Below the pieces are notes generated by a model. That model saw only the letters and a program-made list of their open reading frames with translations. It was not told where the DNA came from and made no database searches. Below, in pieces: positions 3,472 to 38,712 of a DNA stretch of 39,067 nucleotides. The translations under genes and the position numbers were made by a program. This DNA comes from Anaeromicrobium sp. (lineage in GTDB: Bacteria > Bacillota > Clostridia > Peptostreptococcales > Thermotaleaceae), in the NCBI RefSeq assembly GCF_025210435.1, contig NZ_JAOART010000038.1:1-39067 (forward strand), in the 5' to 3' direction. The number at the start of each line of letters is the position of its first letter. Positions within the stretch are counted from its first letter, which is position 1.

Positions 3472-5097
3472 ATGAAAATTCTCTTTGGAGTATTAGGAGG
3501 ATTAGGTTTATTTCTTTATGGAATGAGCATTATGGGAGATGGTTTACAAAAGTCTGCCGGAGATAGAATGAAAAGAATTATAGAAATCCTCACTAGTAAT
3601 AGAATTATGGGCGTGTTTGTTGGTGCCATAGTAACAGCAGTAGTCCAAAGTTCAAGTGCTACAACAGTAATGGTTGTAGGTTTTGTAAATGCTGGAATAA
3701 TGAACTTAACTCAAGCAACTGGAGTTATTATGGGAGCTAATATTGGTACAACCATAACGGCTCAAATAGCTTCACTAAAGTTAAGTGAGTTAGCTCCTAT
3801 TGTTGTGGCAATAGGTGTAGGTGTTTGGTTATTTGCAAATGATAAAAAGGTTAAAAACATGGCAGAAATATTAATTGGTTTTGGTATATTATTCATAGGA
3901 ATGGATTTAATGAAGGATTCCGTAAAACCATTGAGAGAGTATAGTGGATTTAAAGATATGCTTCTTTCCTTTGGGAATCACACATTTGTAGATTCTTTAA
4001 TGGCCATATTTACAGGATTTTTTGTAACAGCAGTAGTTCAAAGTTCTAGTGCCACAACAGGGATATTAATAGCCCTTGCCAGTGAAGGTTTATTACCTAT
4101 AGAAGCAGCACTTCCAATTTTATTTGGTACAAACATAGGAACTTGTGTAACAGCCATGTTATCAAGTATAGGTGCTAATAAAACTGCTAAAAGAGCCGCA
4201 ATTATACATTTAATGTTTAATGTAACAGGAACAGTTCTATTTATGATAGCATTTAAGAGTATCACAATAAAAATTGTTACTGACTTAACTACACTTCCAG
4301 AGAGACAGCTTGCAAATGCCCATACTATATTTAATATAGTTAATACATTAATACTATTACCTTTTGCACCATTATTAGTTAAATTAGCAAATAAGGCAAT
4401 ACCAATAGATGATATAGAACAATCAGATCAAAAGGGCATAAAATACCTAGATGATAGAATGTTAGAAACTCCATCAATAGCCATGGTTCAGGTTAACAAA
4501 GAAATATTAAACATGGCAAATCTAGTATTAGAAAGTTATGAGTTATCTGTAAAGGCCTTCTTTGAGGGTAGTGAAAAGATTGCTCAAGAGGCATTTAAAC
4601 TTGAAAAAATTATAAACAATATGGAAAGATCTATAGGGGAGTACCTGGTTAAATTATCAAATACGTCCCTATCAGCTAGACAACATGAAATTGTAGATGG
4701 AATGTTTAATACTATAAACGACATTGAAAGAGTTGGAGATCATGCTGATAATATTGCAGAGTTAGCCATATATAAGAAAGACAATAAACTAATATTTAGT
4801 GAAAAGGGTATTAAGGAACTAGGAGAGATGCACGAGAGAGTTCTCAAGTCTTATAAGGAATCTATTTTAGCTCTAGAAACAGGTGATTTAAATATAGCAA
4901 GAAAAATATTAGAGCGAGAAGGCGAAATAGATCATATGGAAAAATCATTAAGAGCTAGCCATATAGGCAGACTTAATAGACAAGAATGTAATACGTCTTC
5001 AGGAGTAATATTCCTAGATATTATAAGTAATTTAGAAAGAATGGGAGATCATACAGCTAAGATTGCCTTTGCCGTGTTAGATTTTCCTGATAGATAA
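3472..5097 (+). CDS. Na+/phosphate symporter with C-terminal PhoU-like domain
   Basis: This 541-residue membrane protein of the NptA/PNaS family probably imports phosphate with sodium. The membrane half (about 1-310) contains the two inverted repeats typical of the family, each with a QSSSATT motif (Gln59 and Gln190), plus the GANIGTT and GTNIGTC sequences. Residues about 340-535 form a cytosolic helical PhoU-like domain, with the two repeated patterns ERVGDHADNIAE and ERMGDHTAKIA. An AGGAGG ribosome site lies 8 bases before the ATG. The gene is monocistronic: a Pho-box-like array lies upstream and a strong terminator downstream. Confidence 0.93.
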   Translation: MKILFGVLGGLGLFLYGMSIMGDGLQKSAGDRMKRIIEILTSNRIMGVFVGAIVTAVVQSSSATTVMVVGFVNAGIMNLTQATGVIMGANIGTTITAQIASLKLSELAPIVVAIGVGVWLFANDKKVKNMAEILIGFGILFIGMDLMKDSVKPLREYSGFKDMLLSFGNHTFVDSLMAIFTGFFVTAVVQSSSATTGILIALASEGLLPIEAALPILFGTNIGTCVTAMLSSIGANKTAKRAAIIHLMFNVTGTVLFMIAFKSITIKIVTDLTTLPERQLANAHTIFNIVNTLILLPFAPLLVKLANKAIPIDDIEQSDQKGIKYLDDRMLETPSIAMVQVNKEILNMANLVLESYELSVKAFFEGSEKIAQEAFKLEKIINNMERSIGEYLVKLSNTSLSARQHEIVDGMFNTINDIERVGDHADNIAELAIYKKDNKLIFSEKGIKELGEMHERVLKSYKESILALETGDLNIARKILEREGEIDHMEKSLRASHIGRLNRQECNTSSGVIFLDIISNLERMGDHTAKIAFAVLDFPDR

Positions 5098-5146
5098 GAA
5101 AAAAAGGTGTAATAAGGGTGGATACCCTTAACTACACCTTTTTTCT
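5097..5146 (+). terminator. Intrinsic terminator after Na/Pi symporter
   Basis: A long stem starts with AAAAAAGGTGTA and continues through AAGGGT. It closes on a GGAT-type loop and ends with ACACCTTTTTT, giving a T-run on the plus strand. Confidence 0.85.
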
Positions 5147-5245
5147 TATAGTGTTCAAAATTTAATATGATAAATATGTTGTAAAAGATAAGTCTTAATA
5201 ATAAACTTATTTATAGGTAAGTATAAAATGAAAGGAGCATATTTC

Positions 5246-6085
5246 ATGAATATAAAAATAATAACAGACAGTTTGTCAGACATTCCTAAGGAATCAATTA
5301 AAAAATATGATATATGTGTCTTACCTCTTAAAGTGAGATTTAAAGAAGTTGAATATGAGGACCAAGTTACAATAACTACGGATGAATTTTTTGAAAAATT
5401 GGAAAAAAGTGAAGAACTTCCCAAAACAGCTCAGGTCATACCCAGTGAATATATTGAAAAAATTGAAAAATATTTAAAAGAAGGTTATGAAATTATAATT
5501 ATAAATGGATCTTCAAAGGTAAGTGGAACCCATCAATCAGCCCTAATAGCAAAAGAGGAAACGGATCCAGAAAAGGTCCATGTGATAGACACCCTATCCC
5601 TTTCCTATGGATGTGGTATTATTGCCGTAGAAGCTGCCAAAATGGCAAAGGAAGGAAAAGGAAGAGAAGAAATAATCCAAAAGGTCAATGAGATGATAGA
5701 TAGGGTGGAAGTATTATTTTCTGTAGAAACTTTAGACTATCTAAAGAAAGGAGGAAGATTAAGTTCTGCTAAAGCTCTCATAGGAAATCTATTAAATGTA
5801 AAGCCCATATTACATATTAGGGATGGAGAAGTGGAAGTTATTGAGAAAGTAAGGGGAAGCAAAAAAATAGTTAAGAAAATGATTGACTTATCTAAAAGCA
5901 TGTCATTAGAAAAAAATATGAAATCAATCACCATTTTACATGGGCAAAATGAAAAAAGTTTCCAAAAATTGAAGGATGAAGTTAAAAAAGAATTAAAACC
6001 AAAGGAAATTCTTGAAAGTCGCATAGGGCCTACAATAGGCACCTATACAGGACCGAGCCTAATCGCCATTGTATTTATGAAGTAA
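5246..6085 (+). CDS. DegV family fatty-acid-binding protein
   Basis: DegV/FakB-type proteins hold a fatty acid for a partner kinase (FakA). Visible features are the N-terminal KIITDSLSDIP, the ligand-loop NGSSKVSGT and the later KKGGRLS motif. With the ATG at 5246 the length is 279 residues, which is normal. That start follows AAAGGAG by 8 bases. An in-frame ATG at 5228 lies before the ribosome site and is less likely. No fakA gene is nearby. The family is certain; the lipid and partner are not shown. Confidence 0.92.
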   Translation: MNIKIITDSLSDIPKESIKKYDICVLPLKVRFKEVEYEDQVTITTDEFFEKLEKSEELPKTAQVIPSEYIEKIEKYLKEGYEIIIINGSSKVSGTHQSALIAKEETDPEKVHVIDTLSLSYGCGIIAVEAAKMAKEGKGREEIIQKVNEMIDRVEVLFSVETLDYLKKGGRLSSAKALIGNLLNVKPILHIRDGEVEVIEKVRGSKKIVKKMIDLSKSMSLEKNMKSITILHGQNEKSFQKLKDEVKKELKPKEILESRIGPTIGTYTGPSLIAIVFMK

Positions 6086-6189: not shown

Positions 6190-6384
6190 ATTCTGATTGA
6201 CGAGTGTGGGAGAGAACTAAAATTAGTCGCCGAAGGGACAAGCAAACTATGTTATTGCCAACTGGTTTGTGAATTTCTCAGGCAAAAGGACCGTGCTTTG
6301 ACAGAACTCTGGAAAGCTTTTCAAATAAAAGCACCGACGGAGCAATCCTTAAGGGGAGAATCTCTCAGGTTTACGACAGAGAAA
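6190..6384 (+). promoter_or_regulatory. Tandem glycine riboswitch (gcvT type)
   Basis: Two glycine aptamers follow one another. The first has GGGAGAG, GCCGAAGGGACAAGC, TTCTCAGGCAAAAGGACCG and GACAGAACTCTGG. The second has GCACCGACGGAGCAATCC, GGGGAGAATCTCTCAGG and ACGACAGAG. These are the hallmark segments of gcvT riboswitches, including the short linker between aptamers. A terminator hairpin follows at once and grdX begins 90 bases later. I infer that bound glycine prevents termination and turns on the glycine reductase genes. Family identity is clear by eye; the ON direction is inference from the enzyme's function. Confidence 0.93.
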
Positions 6385-10242: not shown

Positions 10243-11553
10243 ATGAGCAAGCTTAGAGTTGTTCATTATATAAATCAATTCTTCGCAGGTATAGGTGGAG
10301 AAGAAAAAGCTGATTACAAACCAGAAGTTAGAGAAGGTTTTGTTGGGCCAGGTATGGCTATCAACAATTTAATGAAGGAAGAAGCTGAGGTTGTCACTAC
10401 AATTATTTGTGGTGACTCATATTTCAATGAAAATGTAGAAGAGGCTAAGGCGGAAGTTATAAAGATGGTTAAGGATGCAAAACCTGATCTATTTGTAGCG
10501 GGACCAGCATTTAACGCAGGTAGATATGGTGTTGCGTGTGGTACTATTGCTAAAGCTGTACAAGAGGAATTAAACATTCCTGTAGTTACGGCAATGTACC
10601 CAGAAAACCCAGGTGCTGATATGTATAAGAAGGATTTATACATCTTAGAAACTGGAAACTCTGCTGCCGCAATGAGAACTGCAGCACCTGCTTTAGCAAA
10701 ACTTGCACTTAAATTAGGTAAGGGAGAAGAAATTGGATCTCCTGAAGCTGAAGGATATATTAAAAGAGGTGTAAGAAGAAATATCTTTAGAGAAGAAAGA
10801 GGAGCTACAAGAGCAGTAAATATGCTTGTTAAAAAGTTAAAGGGTGAGGAATTTGAAACTGAATACCCAATGCCTACTTTTGATAATGTAGATCCAGGAA
10901 AGGCAATTGAAGATTTATCTAAAGCAAAGATCGCTTTAGTAACATCTGGTGGTATCGTTCCTAAAAACAACCCAGATAGAATCGAATCTTCAAGTGCATC
11001 TAAGTATGGAAAATACGATATTGATGGAGTAATGGACTTAACAGAAGCTACTTACGAGACAGCTCACGGTGGATTTGACCCTGTATACTGTAACGAAGAC
11101 TCTGATAGAGTATTACCAGTAGACGTATTACGTGACTTAGAAAAAGAAGGAGCTATCGGTGAATTATACAGATACTTCTATACTACAACTGGAAATGGTA
11201 CTTCAGTTGGTAACTCTAAACAATTTGCTGCTGAATTTGCACAAGAGTTAGTAGCAGATGGCGTAGATGCTGTTATTTTAACTTCTACGTGAGGTACTTG
11301 TACTCGTTGCGGTGCAACGATGGTTAAAGAGATTGAAAGAACTGGTATTCCAGTAGTTCATATCTGTACAGTAGTACCTATTTCCTTAACGGTTGGAGCT
11401 AACAGAATAGTTCCTGCTATAGCTATCCCTCATCCATTAGGAAACCCAGCATTAGAAGCTGCTGATGAGAAGAAGCTAAGAAGAGAAATTGTTGAAAAAT
11501 CTTTACATGCATTAACTGTCGAAGTGACAGGTCAAACTGTATTTGAAGATTAA
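10243..11553 (+). CDS. grdB: Glycine reductase component B gamma subunit, selenoprotein GrdB (Sec350)
   Basis: GrdB is the catalytic selenoprotein of substrate-binding protein B. It attacks the glycine Schiff base formed on the GrdE product. The frame starts at ATG 10243 and reads through TGA at 11290-11292 as selenocysteine 350, in the motif STUGTCTRC (U-x-x-C-x-x-C). It ends at 11553, giving 436 residues, the normal size. A SECIS-like hairpin follows the UGA. The ribosome site is an unusual run, GAGAGGGGGGGG, 4 bases before the ATG. A 245-base gap, long for this operon, separates it from grdA. Confidence 0.97.
11290..11325 (+). promoter_or_regulatory. Bacterial SECIS-like hairpin after the grdB UGA
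   Basis: CGTTGC (11305-11310) pairs perfectly with GCAACG (11314-11319) around the loop GGT, 18 bases after the UGA codon. In bacteria the selenocysteine element lies just after UGA and shows G and U in a small apical loop, bound by SelB. Position and loop fit. The selA, selB and selC genes are not in this window. Confidence 0.65.
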
Positions 11554-33176: not shown

Positions 33177-33644
33177 ATGGGATCTGGAAAATTAGTAGCA
33201 AGTAATAAAAAGGCAAGACATGAGTATTTTATAGAAGAAACCTTTGAAGCAGGCATAGTTTTAAAGGGAACGGAAGTAAAATCCATAAGACTTGGAAAAA
33301 TTAATTTAAAAGAAGCTTTCGCAAGGATAGAAAATGGTGAAGTATTCATATATGGTATGAATATAAGTCCTTATGAAAAGGGAAACATATACAATGTTGA
33401 TCCTATGAGAACAAGAAAACTACTTTTAAAGAAAAAAGAGATTACAAAACTTATTGGTTATACTGCTCAACATGGATTAACATTAGTTCCACTTAAAGCA
33501 TATATAACTTCTAAGGGTTTAATAAAAATAGAAATTGGAGTAGCTAAAGGTAAAAAGCTACATGACAAGAGACAAGACATGGCTAAGAAAGATGCACAAC
33601 GTCGAATAGAAAAAGAACTAAGAAATAGACAAAAGTCTTATTAA
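33177..33644 (+). CDS. smpB: SsrA-binding protein SmpB
   Basis: SmpB binds tmRNA and brings it to stalled ribosomes for trans-translation. The 155 residues show the family segments [20 protein letters not shown] (8-27), GTEVKSIR, the OB-fold core and the basic tail [13 protein letters not shown], which enters the ribosomal mRNA channel. An AGGTG ribosome site precedes the ATG. The gene lies only 20 bases upstream of the tmRNA gene, so partner protein and RNA are encoded together. A hairpin covers its stop codon. Confidence 0.97.
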
Positions 33645-33664: not shown

Positions 33665-34289
33665 GGGGGCGTACAGGTTTCGACGGGGGTCTGAATTTTA
33701 TAGAAGCGAGTGGAGGTTTTTCCTTGGGGTCCGCCTTAAAAAACTGGGGAACTAAATATAAATGCAAACGATAATTACGCATTAGCAGCATAATATAAGC
33801 TGCTTGTTCACCCTAGAGACCCACGATCTAGGCTTGAACATCATTTGAGTGGGGAACTACTTTTAGGGGGTGCCTTGACCTATTAGTTGACTAATTGGGG
33901 CTGGTAGAGATAAAAGCCTGTCATTGGGCGCTTTGATCTACGAGATTTAAAACAATGACTGTACTCGGAGAAACTATTTTTGCAGGGCTTTCGGACGTGG
34001 GTTCGATTCAAAAAGAGTCGCCCTATGAAGTGATTCATAGGTGAAAATCTGGCTTTATCGGTGAAGGCTAAGGCATAAGATATGCTAAGCTAATACCGAG
34101 GGGTATGTGAAGAAATTCAACAGCTCCTTATCGACTCATAGGCTGCTAAGTCATTAGATAAGCGGTACTAGGATGGAAGATACAAACTAAACTAAGCTTC
34201 CATAACACGCCAGAGGACTTCAATGAAGTTCATGATATAGTCAGTACTATAAGGAAACTTATGGAGTATATGTCCCACCGCCTCCACCA
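33665..34289 (+). ncRNA. ssrA: tmRNA gene, split by an intron in its T-loop
   Basis: tmRNA rescues stalled ribosomes. The 5' end GGGGGCG (33665-33671) pairs with CGCCTCC (34279-34285), followed by A and encoded CCA (34286-34289). The tag reading frame is GCA at 33764 to TAA at 33791-33793, coding ANDNYALAA, a normal proteolysis tag. The T-arm starts GTGGGTTCGAT at the end of exon 1 and resumes TCCCAC only at 34273. Removing 34008-34272 restores GTGGG-TTCGATT-CCCAC and leaves 360 nt, a normal length. Exon 1 is 33665-34007 and exon 2 is 34273-34289. Confidence 0.95.
34008..34272 (+). mobile_element. Group I intron inside ssrA (no ORF)
   Basis: A 265-nt insert splits the tmRNA T-loop. It obeys group I rules: exon 1 ends in U and the intron ends in G. 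P1 can form from exon CGAU with intron GUCG (34017-34020), giving the U-G pair at the splice site, with nearby GGG/CCC. P2 is the perfect hairpin CCTATGAA/TTCATAGG. A P4-P6-like region (TCGGT with ACCGA) follows, and near the 3' end comes GATATAGTC, a usual P7-side sequence. No ORF fits inside, so it has no endonuclease of its own. Group I introns at this tmRNA site are known from some clostridia. Confidence 0.88.
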
Positions 34290-34297
34290 ATAAATAC

Positions 34298-34328
34298 AAC
34301 CGTATTGGATTATCCAATACGGTTTTTT
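34298..34328 (+). terminator. Terminator of ssrA
   Basis: AACCGTATTGGA (34298-34309) pairs with TCCAATACGGTT (34313-34324), followed by TTTT. It begins 8 bases after the tmRNA 3' CCA. Confidence 0.95.
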
Positions 34329-34346
34329 AGTGTTTAGAAATATAAT

Positions 34347-34766
34347 TTATTTGATAGATATAAACCTTTCGTAGAATTCTTCTTTTAATTTTAATGCTTC
34401 ATCCGAATATCTCCCATTTCTAGGAGTAACTGATTCATACTCATTAAGAATTAATTGTGCTCTCTTCCTTTTAGATTCAATTACTAAATAAGGTTCTATA
34501 TATTCTATAAATTTAATAGCATTTCTATACTTTACTATATAGGTATATGAGTTTTTATGTTTATTAGGATCATAATTTTTCTTACTTATTATATTACCTA
34601 CATTGGTTTTGTTTTTTATCCATTCTAATAATTCTAGGGTAGTTGAAGATATTGATACACATGGAGAAGGAAATTGATTTTTATGGAATCTAATAAGCAT
34701 GATACTTCCTTCACCGTCAATTATTCCTGCGATATATGCTTTTTCTTCTGAAGTGATATATAACAC
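34347..34766 (-). CDS. Single-motif LAGLIDADG homing endonuclease
   Basis: This small protein (about 139 residues) has the LAGLIDADG motif as YIAGIIDGEGS near its N-terminus, with the acidic residue needed for cleavage. The domain continues with SSTTLELLEWIKNKTNVG and ends KLKEEFYERF. One motif means it should act as a homodimer. The frame is open to 34841, but a GGAGG (plus-strand 34766-34770) and -10-like AT boxes upstream suggest translation begins near 34766 (GTG, overlapping GGAGG) or just inside. No good canonical start is well placed, so the N-terminus is unsure. It lies opposite and 57 bases beyond intron-split ssrA, outside the intron. Confidence 0.85.
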   Translation of the reverse strand: MLYITSEEKAYIAGIIDGEGSIMLIRFHKNQFPSPCVSISSTTLELLEWIKNKTNVGNIISKKNYDPNKHKNSYTYIVKYRNAIKFIEYIEPYLVIESKRKRAQLILNEYESVTPRNGRYSDEALKLKEEFYERFISIK

Positions 34767-34841
34767 CTCCGAATATACGTTCTTGTAGTTAGTATATGAT
34801 ACTATTATAATTATATTATGGTATAATTTGCTATTTAACAT

Positions 34842-35276
34842 ATGCTATAATTGTAGATGTGAAGTCGTGACAATTTAGAATTATATACGGTGAACCGTAT
34901 CATAAGTGATGGCGGTTTTTTTATACAATATTTTCTAAAATATGTTCCAAGGATTTGAATATTCGTAGTTACACTGTGGATATAACTCTATTCTTCTTGT
35001 TTTTCAATTAAATACTAGTTGTTTTCGGTTATGGGAGTCATTAGGGTAGAGAAAATATAGGGTGGATGGGTTGGATTATGTTAGGTGTTTAACTAATATT
35101 TGGTACTCAACCAAACTAATTAGAGTGCTCTAAAAACTACTTAATTTTTAATACTTAAGACTTTTTAAAACTCTTTGATGTCGAAATAAAGAAAACGAAA
35201 ATTGAAGGAATTTGTAACTATTTAGGGAAGTATATTAGAGTAAACTGAGAATATTATTGTACTAGTAATTTGTATA
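34842..35276. other. Non-coding gap with a terminator-like hairpin
   Basis: There is no gene in this 435-base gap. On the plus strand TATAAT (34846-34851) is followed by a terminator: AACCGTATCA (34893-34902) with TGATGGCGGTT (34907-34917), then T residues. ATACGG/CCGTAT (34885-34900) is a competing hairpin, so the two cannot form together. This could be a short RNA of about 65 nt or remnants of an older leader. The rest, 34930-35276, is plain AT-rich DNA in which I see nothing. Confidence 0.4.
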
Positions 35277-35401: not shown

Positions 35402-36604
35402 ATGTTTCAGAACTCAATTATATCAAATCAATTATCTTTAGACAAATTTCTGAAAGAATTAAATTTTAATTTCTACCTTACTAATCCACAGATAAATCAT
35501 TTAAAAAATATTATCAACTCCATGTTTATGGATGGTTTTAACGGTAAAATTAATGATGTTTCTAAAACTATGTCATCTAGGCATAGAACTAGCATTACAA
35601 GATTTTTATCTAAGAGTTCGTGGAATGAACAATTACTATTTAATGCTTTAAAGTCTAGGGTAATAGATTTAATTTGGTCTAAATCTAAAAAAGCGAACAA
35701 ACCTATTTATGTAATTATTGATGATACCATTTCGGAAAAAACTAAGCCCTCGTCAAAGGCTATAAATCCCATAGACAAGTGTTCATTTCACAACTCTCAT
35801 CTAAAGGGAAAAACTGTTTATGGTCATCAAATCGTTACTTGCTTGCTTTCTTGCGATGGGTTGGTTTTACCTTATGATATATGCATTTATGATAAAAACG
35901 TTATGAGTAAGATAGATATAGCAGTTAATATTATTAAGTCTTTGCCTGCACCTGTATCTAAAGGATATGTTTTATGTGATAGCTGGTATAGTTGTAAAAC
36001 AATTTTCACTGCATCTTTACAAGCTGGCTTTAAATATATTGGTGCTGTAAAAACTAATAGAATAATCTTCCCCAAAGGACATGAAGATTTAGGAGCTAGA
36101 CTTAATAGCTATGCCCTTAGTTTAGATAAAAATGCCTTCGGCCTAGTCACAGTCGGAAATAAGGATTATTATATCTACAACTATGTTGGCAAATTGAAGG
36201 ATATGAAAAAAGTTTCAGTTGTATTAAGCTATCCCAAAGAACAATTTCATGTAAAAGGAGCCCTTAAAGCCTTTATTTCTCTAGATACAGATTTAACAGA
36301 TATTGAGATTCTTAATATCTACACCGATAGGTGGGTTATAGAACCATTTTTTAGAGAAAGTAAAAGATACTTAGGGTTAAATGGATATCAAGTTAGAAGT
36401 AATAAGAGTATCATTAGGTATTTATTAATAATGTTATTATCATATACTTACTCTAAATTGTATTCATCAAAGATCTTTAATTTTAACCACGGATTTAAGT
36501 GTATAAGAAATAATTTAAAAAAATCTCAAGTCGTTAGAATATATTCTGCTGCTTTAAATGGTGAACCTATTTCTAAAATTTTCGAGGCTCTAAAAATAGC
36601 ATAG
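35402..36604 (+). CDS. DDE transposase (IS4 superfamily, IS701-like)
   Basis: This 400-residue transposase moves the surrounding element by cut-and-paste. The catalytic Asp residues are in VIIDDT (107/108) and VLCDSWYSC (193). The Glu is in the IS4-type Y-x2-R-x3-E-x6-K motif: Tyr307, Arg310, Glu314, Lys321 (YTDRWVIEPFFRESK). An N-terminal segment with HRTSITRFLSKSSW is typical of IS701-like enzymes. An AGGTGGTG ribosome site lies before the ATG. The frame is intact with all catalytic residues. IS701 is the best guess for the family. Confidence 0.93.
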   Translation: MFQNSIISNQLSLDKFLKELNFNFYLTNPQINHLKNIINSMFMDGFNGKINDVSKTMSSRHRTSITRFLSKSSWNEQLLFNALKSRVIDLIWSKSKKANKPIYVIIDDTISEKTKPSSKAINPIDKCSFHNSHLKGKTVYGHQIVTCLLSCDGLVLPYDICIYDKNVMSKIDIAVNIIKSLPAPVSKGYVLCDSWYSCKTIFTASLQAGFKYIGAVKTNRIIFPKGHEDLGARLNSYALSLDKNAFGLVTVGNKDYYIYNYVGKLKDMKKVSVVLSYPKEQFHVKGALKAFISLDTDLTDIEILNIYTDRWVIEPFFRESKRYLGLNGYQVRSNKSIIRYLLIMLLSYTYSKLYSSKIFNFNHGFKCIRNNLKKSQVVRIYSAALNGEPISKIFEALKIA

Positions 36605-36769: not shown

Positions 36770-38224
36770 ATGCAAAAAATATTTAAGGTTAAGTTACGTA
36801 TTGCCAGACCAAATGTCGATGGAAATACACTAAATTTCAAGACGAAATATGAGGACATATTTTATGGAATTGATGAGTTTAATAATAAGTTTCAGAATTT
36901 TAAAGAACTTAAGTTAATTGAAATTGGGGATAAATATATGAGTATGTTACTGTCAATATTTGTTGAAAGTGAAGAAGTTAATGTTGATGGACGTGATTTA
37001 TCATACTTCTCTAAACGATTATATGATGATAGAGATTGGAATACCTATAGCTTGATTGATAGTCGACTCTTTAATGCAGTTGATGTTATTGATGTTACAA
37101 AAGAATATATTGATAAATTTGACTCGATGGATGTTATTCCTAACGGAGATTATTGTGAGTTGATTTTTGAAAAGAAAGATAATATTGAAGATGATGTAGA
37201 TGAAGAAGATATTACTATGGAGTATTCAATTACGAGTTACGGTGCTGATTATGACGTCGAAGGTCTTGTAAACAAGTTAAATAAAGGTAGAATTTATATT
37301 CCAAACTTTCAAAGACAATATGTATGGAAACAAGATCAAGCATCAAGACTTATAGAATCGTTACTTATGGGCCTACCTATACCAGGGATATTTTTATCAA
37401 AAGATGATGAAACATCCAAGCTTCTTATAATTGATGGTCAGCAACGATTGAGGACATTACAATATTTTTATAAAGGAATTTTCGAGCCAAATGGAAGAAA
37501 ATTTAAATTACGCAATGTTCATCCAAATTATGATGGTAAAACATATGAAGAACTATCTGAAAATGATAAGGCAAAAATAGATGAATCTATAATTCATGCT
37601 ACCATAATTAAACAAGATGAGCCAAGTGAAGATGATAGTAGTGTATTTTATATTTTTGAAAGAATAAATACTGGAGGCACTCAACTAACCCCTCAAGAGA
37701 TAAGAGTATGTATATATAATGGTGAGTTTAGTGATTTTTTACGAACTTTACAACTAAGTAAAGAGTGGAAGAATATTTATGGCAAACCGAATATTAAGTT
37801 GAAGGATCAAGAATTGATATTGAGATTCTTTGCTCTTTACTATGATTTAAATAATTATGAAAAGCCTTTAAAAGGATTCTTGAATAAATTTATGAAGAAG
37901 AATAAGAAATTTGATGTTGTTAGTAAAGAAGAACTTAATAAAGTTTTTTTTAATACAGTTAATTTTATATACAGAGCATTAGGAAAAGAAGCATTCAGAC
38001 CTGTAAAACAGATTAAGGCTTCAGTATTTGACTCTGTTATGATTGGTACTGCAAAGCGTCTTGAAGAGGGTAGTATTATAGATATAGAGAATTATGTTAG
38101 AAAGTACAATGAACTTATGGAAATACCAGAATATATTGAGAGCATTACAGCAGGAACCTCAGATAAAGATGTGGTTTCAAAAAGGTTAACTTTAGCGATT
38201 GATGCATTTTCGTCTATTGAGTAA
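36770..38224 (+). CDS. DUF262 domain protein (ParB/GmrS-like), candidate defence component
   Basis: This 484-residue protein has the DUF262 fold over about 165-320: IPNFQRQYVW (177-186), IDGQQR (221-226) and FERINTGG-TQLTPQEIR (296-312), the hallmark motifs of this ParB-like NTP-using domain. DUF262 is the N-terminal half of GmrSD- and SspE-type phage restriction enzymes. Here the C-terminal part (320-484) shows no HNH (DUF1524) motif. Residues 1-160 form an extra acidic N-terminal region that I do not recognise. A GGGGGAG ribosome site precedes the ATG. The next gene starts 14 bases after the stop with the same type of ribosome site. Function is inferred, not proved. Confidence 0.88.
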   Translation: MQKIFKVKLRIARPNVDGNTLNFKTKYEDIFYGIDEFNNKFQNFKELKLIEIGDKYMSMLLSIFVESEEVNVDGRDLSYFSKRLYDDRDWNTYSLIDSRLFNAVDVIDVTKEYIDKFDSMDVIPNGDYCELIFEKKDNIEDDVDEEDITMEYSITSYGADYDVEGLVNKLNKGRIYIPNFQRQYVWKQDQASRLIESLLMGLPIPGIFLSKDDETSKLLIIDGQQRLRTLQYFYKGIFEPNGRKFKLRNVHPNYDGKTYEELSENDKAKIDESIIHATIIKQDEPSEDDSSVFYIFERINTGGTQLTPQEIRVCIYNGEFSDFLRTLQLSKEWKNIYGKPNIKLKDQELILRFFALYYDLNNYEKPLKGFLNKFMKKNKKFDVVSKEELNKVFFNTVNFIYRALGKEAFRPVKQIKASVFDSVMIGTAKRLEEGSIIDIENYVRKYNELMEIPEYIESITAGTSDKDVVSKRLTLAIDAFSSIE

Positions 38225-38238
38225 TTGGGGGAGAAAAA

Positions 38239-38712
38239 ATGCCAAATAAAGAACTAGATAAACTATCAAAAAAGCTAGATAATAAATTTAAATTAATTGA
38301 TAAAATTGACAAAGATAATGAAATAGAACTTAAAGCAGAATATTCAAAGTATTTATGTGTTTTAGTTTCTGGGTATTTTGAAAATACAATTAAAGTCATT
38401 TTTGAAGGATATACAAAGGATAAAGGTCATCCAAATCTAAACCGATATATTACTAAGCAAATAAGGAATAAAACCAATTTTAACTCACAAAAACTTAAGA
38501 ACTTTCTAAAAGAGTTTAATGATGAGTGGGAGAATGAATACGAAGATGTGGTTGATGATGATGAAAAAGATGCTATTGGAAGTATTTATGTCAATAGAAA
38601 TAATATTGCTCACGGTAAAGATAATAATATTTCATTCGCTGCTGTAAAAAGTTACTACGAACATGTTAAAAAATTAGTTTGCAAGATAAATCAAATAGTT
38701 AATTGTTCATAA
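38239..38712 (+). CDS. HEPN-domain protein, candidate RNase partner of DUF262
   Basis: This 157-residue protein is mostly helical and charged. It contains R120-N-N-I-A-H125 followed by GKDN, the R-x4-H active-site motif of HEPN ribonucleases. The segment ASVSGYFE-like ancestor motif reads VLVSGYFENTIK (41-52), as in RiboL-PSP/MAE_28990-type HEPN families. A GGGGGAG ribosome site is 6 bases before the ATG. It is coupled to the DUF262 gene in a two-gene unit. I infer that it is an RNA-cutting effector under control of DUF262. It could instead be a structural HEPN protein. No signal peptide or membrane segment is seen. Confidence 0.8.
   Translation: MPNKELDKLSKKLDNKFKLIDKIDKDNEIELKAEYSKYLCVLVSGYFENTIKVIFEGYTKDKGHPNLNRYITKQIRNKTNFNSQKLKNFLKEFNDEWENEYEDVVDDDEKDAIGSIYVNRNNIAHGKDNNISFAAVKSYYEHVKKLVCKINQIVNCS

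Follow-up and report, generated by a model that had tools for sequence, protein, structure and literature searches.

The ORF-less group I intron that interrupts the tmRNA gene (ssrA) in the window, which is the whole stretch of 39,067 nucleotides of Anaeromicrobium sp. DNA analysed here, has a free-standing LAGLIDADG homing endonuclease gene alongside it, and the two probably constitute a collaborative homing pair. Across the genomes compared, almost every gene of this endonuclease family that looks intact has the intron for a neighbour, a pattern suggesting that intron and endonuclease are two selfish elements spreading as partners. The locus is made up of the following features.

33177-33644, plus strand: open reading frame directly 5' of ssrA (ORF list), which we take to be smpB, encoding the tmRNA partner protein
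33665-34289, plus strand: ssrA (tmRNA), from the sequence and Rfam RF00023 (129 bits)
33665-34007, plus strand: ssrA 5' exon, from RF00023, with the tag ANDNYALAA read by eye
33997-34007, plus strand: 5' half of the T-arm, GTGGG plus TTCGAT, from the sequence; putative left half of the endonuclease site
34008-34272, plus strand: group I intron of 265 nt in the T-loop, from RF00028, the fold z-score, and the U/G rule with T-arm restoration
34273-34289, plus strand: ssrA 3' exon (TCCCACCGCCTCCACCA), from the sequence
34298-34324, both strands: terminator-like hairpin of 12 pairs between the convergent ssrA and endonuclease genes (pattern match only)
34347-34757, minus strand: LAGLIDADG homing endonuclease gene (homologous extent including the stop; the ORF is open to 34841), from the ORF list, Pfam and relatives
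34707-34733, minus strand: LAGLIDADG motif IAGIIDGEG with the acid E intact, from alignments of relatives and to I-MsoI
34755-34757, minus strand: ATC where relatives have a start codon, from the start-region comparison
34766-34770, minus strand: GGAGG by the endonuclease gene start, from the sequence

The RF00023 match to ssrA ends at the T-loop, and a group I intron match (RF00028, 33980-34264, 54.7 bits against a cut-off of 50) spans the break. ARAGORN did not find ssrA in its scan of the window, a miss that is expected since the gene is split. The intron ends were set by inspection, with U before the intron and G as its last base (rules as given in the available text of PMC11915505), and these U/G boundaries together with the covariance model match identify 34008-34272 as a group I intron. 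Its excision would restore GTGGG-TTCGATT-CCCAC, and its fold is 4.3 standard deviations better than those of shuffled sequences (z -4.3). The ORF list of the window contains no frame of at least 70 codons within the intron, bearing out an earlier sequence-only reading that the ssrA intron is without an endonuclease.

That reading had also placed a compact single-motif LAGLIDADG gene 57 bases past ssrA on the opposite strand, and this description holds. The predicted protein matches Pfam LAGLIDADG_3 (25.7 bits, cut-off 22.5) and LAGLIDADG_1 (25.6 bits, cut-off 23.1), both narrowly over the gathering scores, and has IAGIIDGEG as its one motif; the genes converge, with 57 nt from the ssrA CCA to the endonuclease stop codon. 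A search of NCBIfam with the window protein gave no match. A profile search against the sequences of structurally solved proteins gave matches, extending through the motif, to I-MsoI, an I-DmoI/I-CreI chimera, I-PanMI and the rRNA intron-encoded endonuclease 3e54, whereas the gene here lies beside ssrA and not in the intron. A second, weak match to the endonuclease was found in the same genome (L002, E 6e-4).

The start of the gene adds a point to the earlier note, namely the absence of a normal start codon in the window copy. At this position 28 of 36 homologues (the window's included) have ATG, TTG or GTG, mostly a few bases past a GGAGG-like sequence, six have their ATG further upstream by one or a few codons, and the window and G427 read ATC and ATA respectively. 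The next in-frame ATG of the window gene, at 34841, would give a 28-residue extension. In the only other searched genome of the same genus (G001) the endonuclease is broken by stops, with ssrA and the intron kept. Given the ATC at the start and the broken G001 copy, the window copy is probably poorly expressed or starting to decay, and the homing cycle is probably ending at this locus; the homing mechanism is argued here for the endonuclease family, not for the window copy alone.

Further along the window, a DDE transposase gene (DDE_Tnp_1, 35402-36604) lies between the ssrA locus and a pair of genes at 36770-38712, which encode a GmrSD_N protein (PADLOC NsnA E 6e-76, PD-T4-2_A E 6e-62) and, after it, a RiboL-PSP HEPN protein, and which look like a two-gene phage-defence system. 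A SECIS_4 element (11293-11330) and a glycine riboswitch (6197-6303) both score over their gathering thresholds.

The proposed homing cycle, in which cleavage, its target, co-conversion and protection are predicted from sequence, would run as follows. The free-standing, single-motif enzyme, probably a homodimer, would have its site within the T-arm region of an ssrA without intron; insertion of the intron would split this putative site. When a cell with both elements meets or receives an intronless ssrA, the enzyme would cut at or close to the point of insertion, and repair templated by the donor would copy the intron together with the endonuclease gene, which at 21 loci lies 30-99 nt away from ssrA. 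The intron would then splice out, leaving the tmRNA functional, and would keep the donor from cutting its own ssrA. Once fixation is reached, decay of the endonuclease gene would follow.

The T-arm contains a near-palindrome, AGGGG TTCGATT CCCCT, and the insertion point is about two bases off its centre. Compact multimerising LAGLIDADG enzymes are restricted to sites with palindromic symmetry (available text of PMC3943268), and the tRNA-like T-arm may be the palindromic type of site that a homodimeric LAGLIDADG enzyme needs. The 13-bp T-arm core GGGTTCGATTCCC has 1-15 exact copies in each of seven gene-bearing genomes, presumably in tRNA genes, and because it recurs in this way the enzyme would have to read flanking bases.

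Matches to the endonuclease were found in 10 of 149 relatives, in 11 of 394 genomes of the order (the ten matched relatives included) and in 11 of 383 genomes of the phylum (the window's own included), and one scan of genome contigs gave 22 endonuclease loci. In Clostridiaceae, as the family of G395 (C. manihotivorum) is called here, 57 of 206 genomes contain the gene or its remains. The endonuclease family is tied to ssrA: gene and ssrA share a contig in 53 of these 57 genomes, and in all 53 the gene is downstream of ssrA and convergent with it, at less than 1 kb in 27, 1-10 kb in 15 and 10-75 kb in 11. In the other four, gene and ssrA are on different contigs. Occurrence at unrelated sites, which the sequence-only reading had named as a refutation, is not the pattern seen.

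The gap of 30-99 nt applies to the 21 loci that have no island between ssrA and the gene. In two loci that were read through (L076 and L077), 9-10 kb with other genes separate them, and L076 has a repeat of the ssrA 3' end next to the endonuclease gene, the pattern that an integrated island would leave. That the gene is itself cargo of ssrA-integrating islands was considered and rejected, as 27 of 53 copies are within 1 kb of ssrA and the L076 stretch with the repeated 3' end sits between ssrA and the gene.

Genes were counted as motif-intact when the profile was covered without a stop and the LAGLIDADG acid was kept, and the intron and intronless counts come from the tree-test set and from reading of the sequences. 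With three samples pooled, 31 of 33 motif-intact genes are by an intron-bearing ssrA, two by an altered T-loop and none by an uninterrupted TTCGATT, whereas the 41 damaged genes divide into 13 with the intron and 28 without, eight of the latter by uninterrupted TTCGATT. Equal frequency beside intronless ssrA, which would have counted against the pairing, is not what these numbers describe.

In the order sample all five intact genes (G000, G010, G011, G012, G175) accompany the intron, and the five damaged ones include two with it (G001, G119) and three without (G035, G050, G123). The 4,329-base contig C39 of G024 (L007/L025) was left out of these counts; its gene and ssrA junction are identical to those of L026, G024 has another ssrA of intronless length, and the contig is likely misbinned. 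In Clostridiaceae the intron is present with 23 of 25 intact genes (two intronless), 10 of 32 damaged genes (22 intronless) and 14 of 133 genomes without a detected gene, where some intronless calls derive from the length of the tmRNA match; 16 of the 206 genomes were undetermined, 15 having no tmRNA match and one being cut by a contig end. New genomes of the phylum sample gave three intact genes from other families, all with the intron (G605, G822, G939), and four damaged genes, one with it (G793); G804 and G810 were dropped because they hold other genes, and G957, being the same as G536, was counted once. Fisher tests in Clostridiaceae gave p 2.9e-6 for intact versus damaged genes and p 1.4e-14 for intact genes versus all others. 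When 31 intact genes (the G024 contig included, the three of the phylum sample left out) were clustered at 85% identity, 24 of 25 clusters were all-intron and one was mixed.

These counts bear on ordinary intronless homing, in which the site would be in the 3' end or flank of ssrA and be destroyed by the gene's own insertion, the intron being a passenger by co-conversion with no protective role. The short gap at the 21 loci agrees with this reading, as does the statement, in the available part of PMC6083498, that free-standing endonucleases can cut one of two flanking genes. It nevertheless predicts intact genes by intronless standard ssrA, where there are none of the 33 and yet eight damaged ones, and we regard it as unlikely.

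To control for relatedness, a tree was built from the ssrA 5' exons of 231 genomes with a placeable ssrA, a selection from which G447 and G793 were left out and in which intron and intronless cases number 30 and 2 for intact, 12 and 28 for damaged and 24 and 135 for undetected genes. Independent pairs, differing in the intact gene and sharing no branch, were averaged over 200 random pairings: for the intact gene against the intron, 12.4 pairs agree, 0.0 oppose and 3.6 are undecided (median p 0.0005), with one opposing pair in a few of the pairings. Restricted to intact versus damaged genes, 10.5 agree, 0.0 oppose and 3.5 are undecided (p 0.002). Collaborative homing, as proposed in the sequence-only reading, came through these comparisons, and the results on position and on the contrast between intact and damaged genes favour it as a reading of the sequences. 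Joint inheritance of the two, over and above host relatedness, did not emerge clearly: over 15 loci distances between HEGs track those between introns (Mantel r 0.54, p 0.0003), but given host SmpB distances, obtained by tblastn with the window's smpB as query, the partial Mantel r is 0.26 (p 0.087).

The HEG tree mostly follows host groups, with weak support. The window's family comes together (82/76) and more distant members are basal. Two placements hint at transfer, on branches none of which is strongly supported: G175 groups with the G539 gene from Clostridiaceae (91/90), and the window's family falls among genes of Clostridiaceae. With a median dN/dS of 0.21 over the 108 of 210 pairs that have dS below 2, the intact genes show purifying selection.

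It is improbable, more so than intronless homing, that shared age alone accounts for the association, with intron and gene having arrived together long ago and both decaying without any target relation. Damaged copies are common (41 of the 74 counted in three samples) and the HEG tree roughly follows the hosts, as such a history would have it. Set against it are the purifying selection on intact copies and the asymmetry of the 190 Clostridiaceae genomes, in which the intron occurs without an intact gene in 10 + 14 and an intact gene without the intron in two, although quicker decay of the gene than of the intron after joint arrival could give a similar asymmetry. Shared age of decay could explain part of the gene-intron pattern. 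Scanning for relics in flanks that had no detected gene gave hits in 1 of 24 with the intron and 6 of 130 without it, against 0 and 2 in the shuffled control; undetected remains are therefore present, though few.

That the protein is a maturase which keeps company with the intron by aiding its splicing, a role that such enzymes may take on later according to the available text of one review (PMC3984707), is very improbable, since 24 of 47 intron-bearing Clostridiaceae genomes have no intact gene, self-splicing has reportedly been shown for the tmRNA intron of C. botulinum (available part of PMC2729099) and the catalytic acid is retained in 33 of 34 full-length genes.

The intronless cases may be considered one by one under collaborative homing. 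The two intact genes without an intron are those of G394 (C. folliculivorans) and G395, 1.1 kb from an ssrA with the T-loop TTCGACA in place of TTCGATT. In L016 an ssrA 3'-end remnant is beside the intact gene, as after island insertion, and in L015 a pentapeptide-repeat protein gene (4404-5501) lies between the intronless ssrA and the intact endonuclease gene. Altered T-loops are also common in genomes without a detected gene, so the loop alone proves little and the argument rests on the intron; the absence of intact genes by TTCGATT likewise rests on the intron, because only two intact genes are intronless and they are of one lineage.

Among the eight damaged genes beside uninterrupted TTCGATT, that of G568 is the only full-length one, and its motif reads GGIIDSKG versus AGIIDGEG in relatives. 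The motif-end acid (GEG) is present in the window and 32 other motif-intact genes; with SKG in its place, the G568 enzyme is, as judged from its sequence, one that has lost its catalytic acid. A broken copy in L030 is also by uninterrupted TTCGATT, and an intronless ssrA with the 3' end CCCGTCGCCTCCACCA occurs among the loci read. In L028 (650-1540) a new intronless ssrA 3' end is followed by the displaced T-arm, the intron and the old 3' end and then by a frameshifted gene, the intron apparently having been removed from ssrA by an integration event.

Two pairs of genomes, each pair from one genus, were compared. G011, with gene and intron, and G003, with the intron and no gene detected, are 92-97% alike in aligned stretches to just past the ssrA end. 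The flank lying past the gene in the window and in G012 sits, in G003, soon after ssrA, behind a hairpin, and no endonuclease gene was detected there; CRTAYCATAARTGAYNGCGGTTTTTT lies downstream of ssrA in the window (34896-34921, plus strand) and in G003 (L221, 857-882), with a near copy in G012. G012 and G005 are 98% alike up to the T-loop, the 3' end in G005 being uninterrupted, and about 4 kb further on G005 has a 62-nt match (90%) to the end of the gene and its flank.

Other endonuclease genes have been found in the ssrA 3' flank. L029, from an unclassified bacterium MAG and outside the counts, has an intact LAGLIDADG gene (432-854, 42% identity, motif intact) that follows, on the same strand, an intronless ssrA whose unusual T-arm lacks TTCGATT; as an intact gene by an intronless ssrA it speaks against collaborative homing, if with an odd T-arm. 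L318 (G810) has a double-motif LAGLIDADG gene (1228-2373, LAGLIDADG_1 138.7 bits) on the same strand as an intron-bearing ssrA, with an open frame of 382 codons that opens about 30 nt past ssrA; being a different gene it was dropped as a family member, as was the weak match in G804 (L315), near which no ssrA was found. Second remnants further out in several genomes (for example G010, G605, G544 and G550) could record successive invasions. rRNA loci of candidate-phyla bacteria hold six distant relatives (26-41% identity); five of these loci give a 23S match and the sixth a 5S match, and five of the six have a group I intron match, most under the gathering score. With the convergent family, its same-strand relative in L029 and the double-motif gene of L318 all in the ssrA 3' flank, we tentatively propose, at slightly less than even chances, that collaborative homing is a usual lifestyle of tmRNA introns and that this flank has been colonised more than once. 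The alternative raised in the sequence-only reading, that the arrangement is a step before an endonuclease invades the intron, gained nothing from the loci looked at, in which no family member is inside a tmRNA intron.

Close parallels exist in phages. In cyanophage S-PM2 the free-standing F-CphI gene adjoins the intron-bearing psbA gene, as here; the intron prevents cutting of its own gene, and the free-standing enzyme lets the intron potentially invade intronless genomes (PMC6083498, available text). There, cleavage has been shown and the setting is a phage, a protein-coding gene and an Endo VII-type enzyme, whereas here cleavage is predicted and the setting is a bacterial chromosome, a tmRNA gene and a convergent LAGLIDADG gene. 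The ICP1 terminase intron, with its T5orf172 gene, and T3/T7-like phages similarly have an endonuclease gene that adjoins the intron and is not inside it (available portion of PMC10448857), but these are phage genes, and the ICP1 endonuclease family differs from LAGLIDADG. Collaborative homing is also covered in the review cited above (PMC3984707, in the part available). Within tmRNA introns, an endonuclease gene is present in 36 of 883 intron-form genes; these share ssrA, the T-loop position and LAGLIDADG with the present case, but the gene is in P7.1 or after P9 (first 23) rather than outside, and the available text of that survey (PMC11915505) does not mention free-standing neighbour endonucleases. 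The sequence-only reading knew such pairings from phages and not as a described tmRNA case, and the literature searched, in its available text, likewise describes no endonuclease gene next to tmRNA; a term search found tmRNA and ssrA absent from the main text of a 2026 preprint on LAGLIDADG enzymes (PMC13405050).

Surveys restricted to intron interiors would miss partner genes that lie outside. If collaborative homing is a usual lifestyle of tmRNA introns, outside enzymes would help explain why only about 4% of those known carry one inside. If the pairing is as proposed, collaborative homing, which the cited papers describe from phages, would enter cellular chromosomes and a non-coding RNA gene, and the loci of this family would provide natural replicates by the dozen, some still invading and others decaying to various degrees. 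tmRNA introns are widespread and mostly without an endonuclease, and a partner gene outside the intron would be an answer to how they spread.
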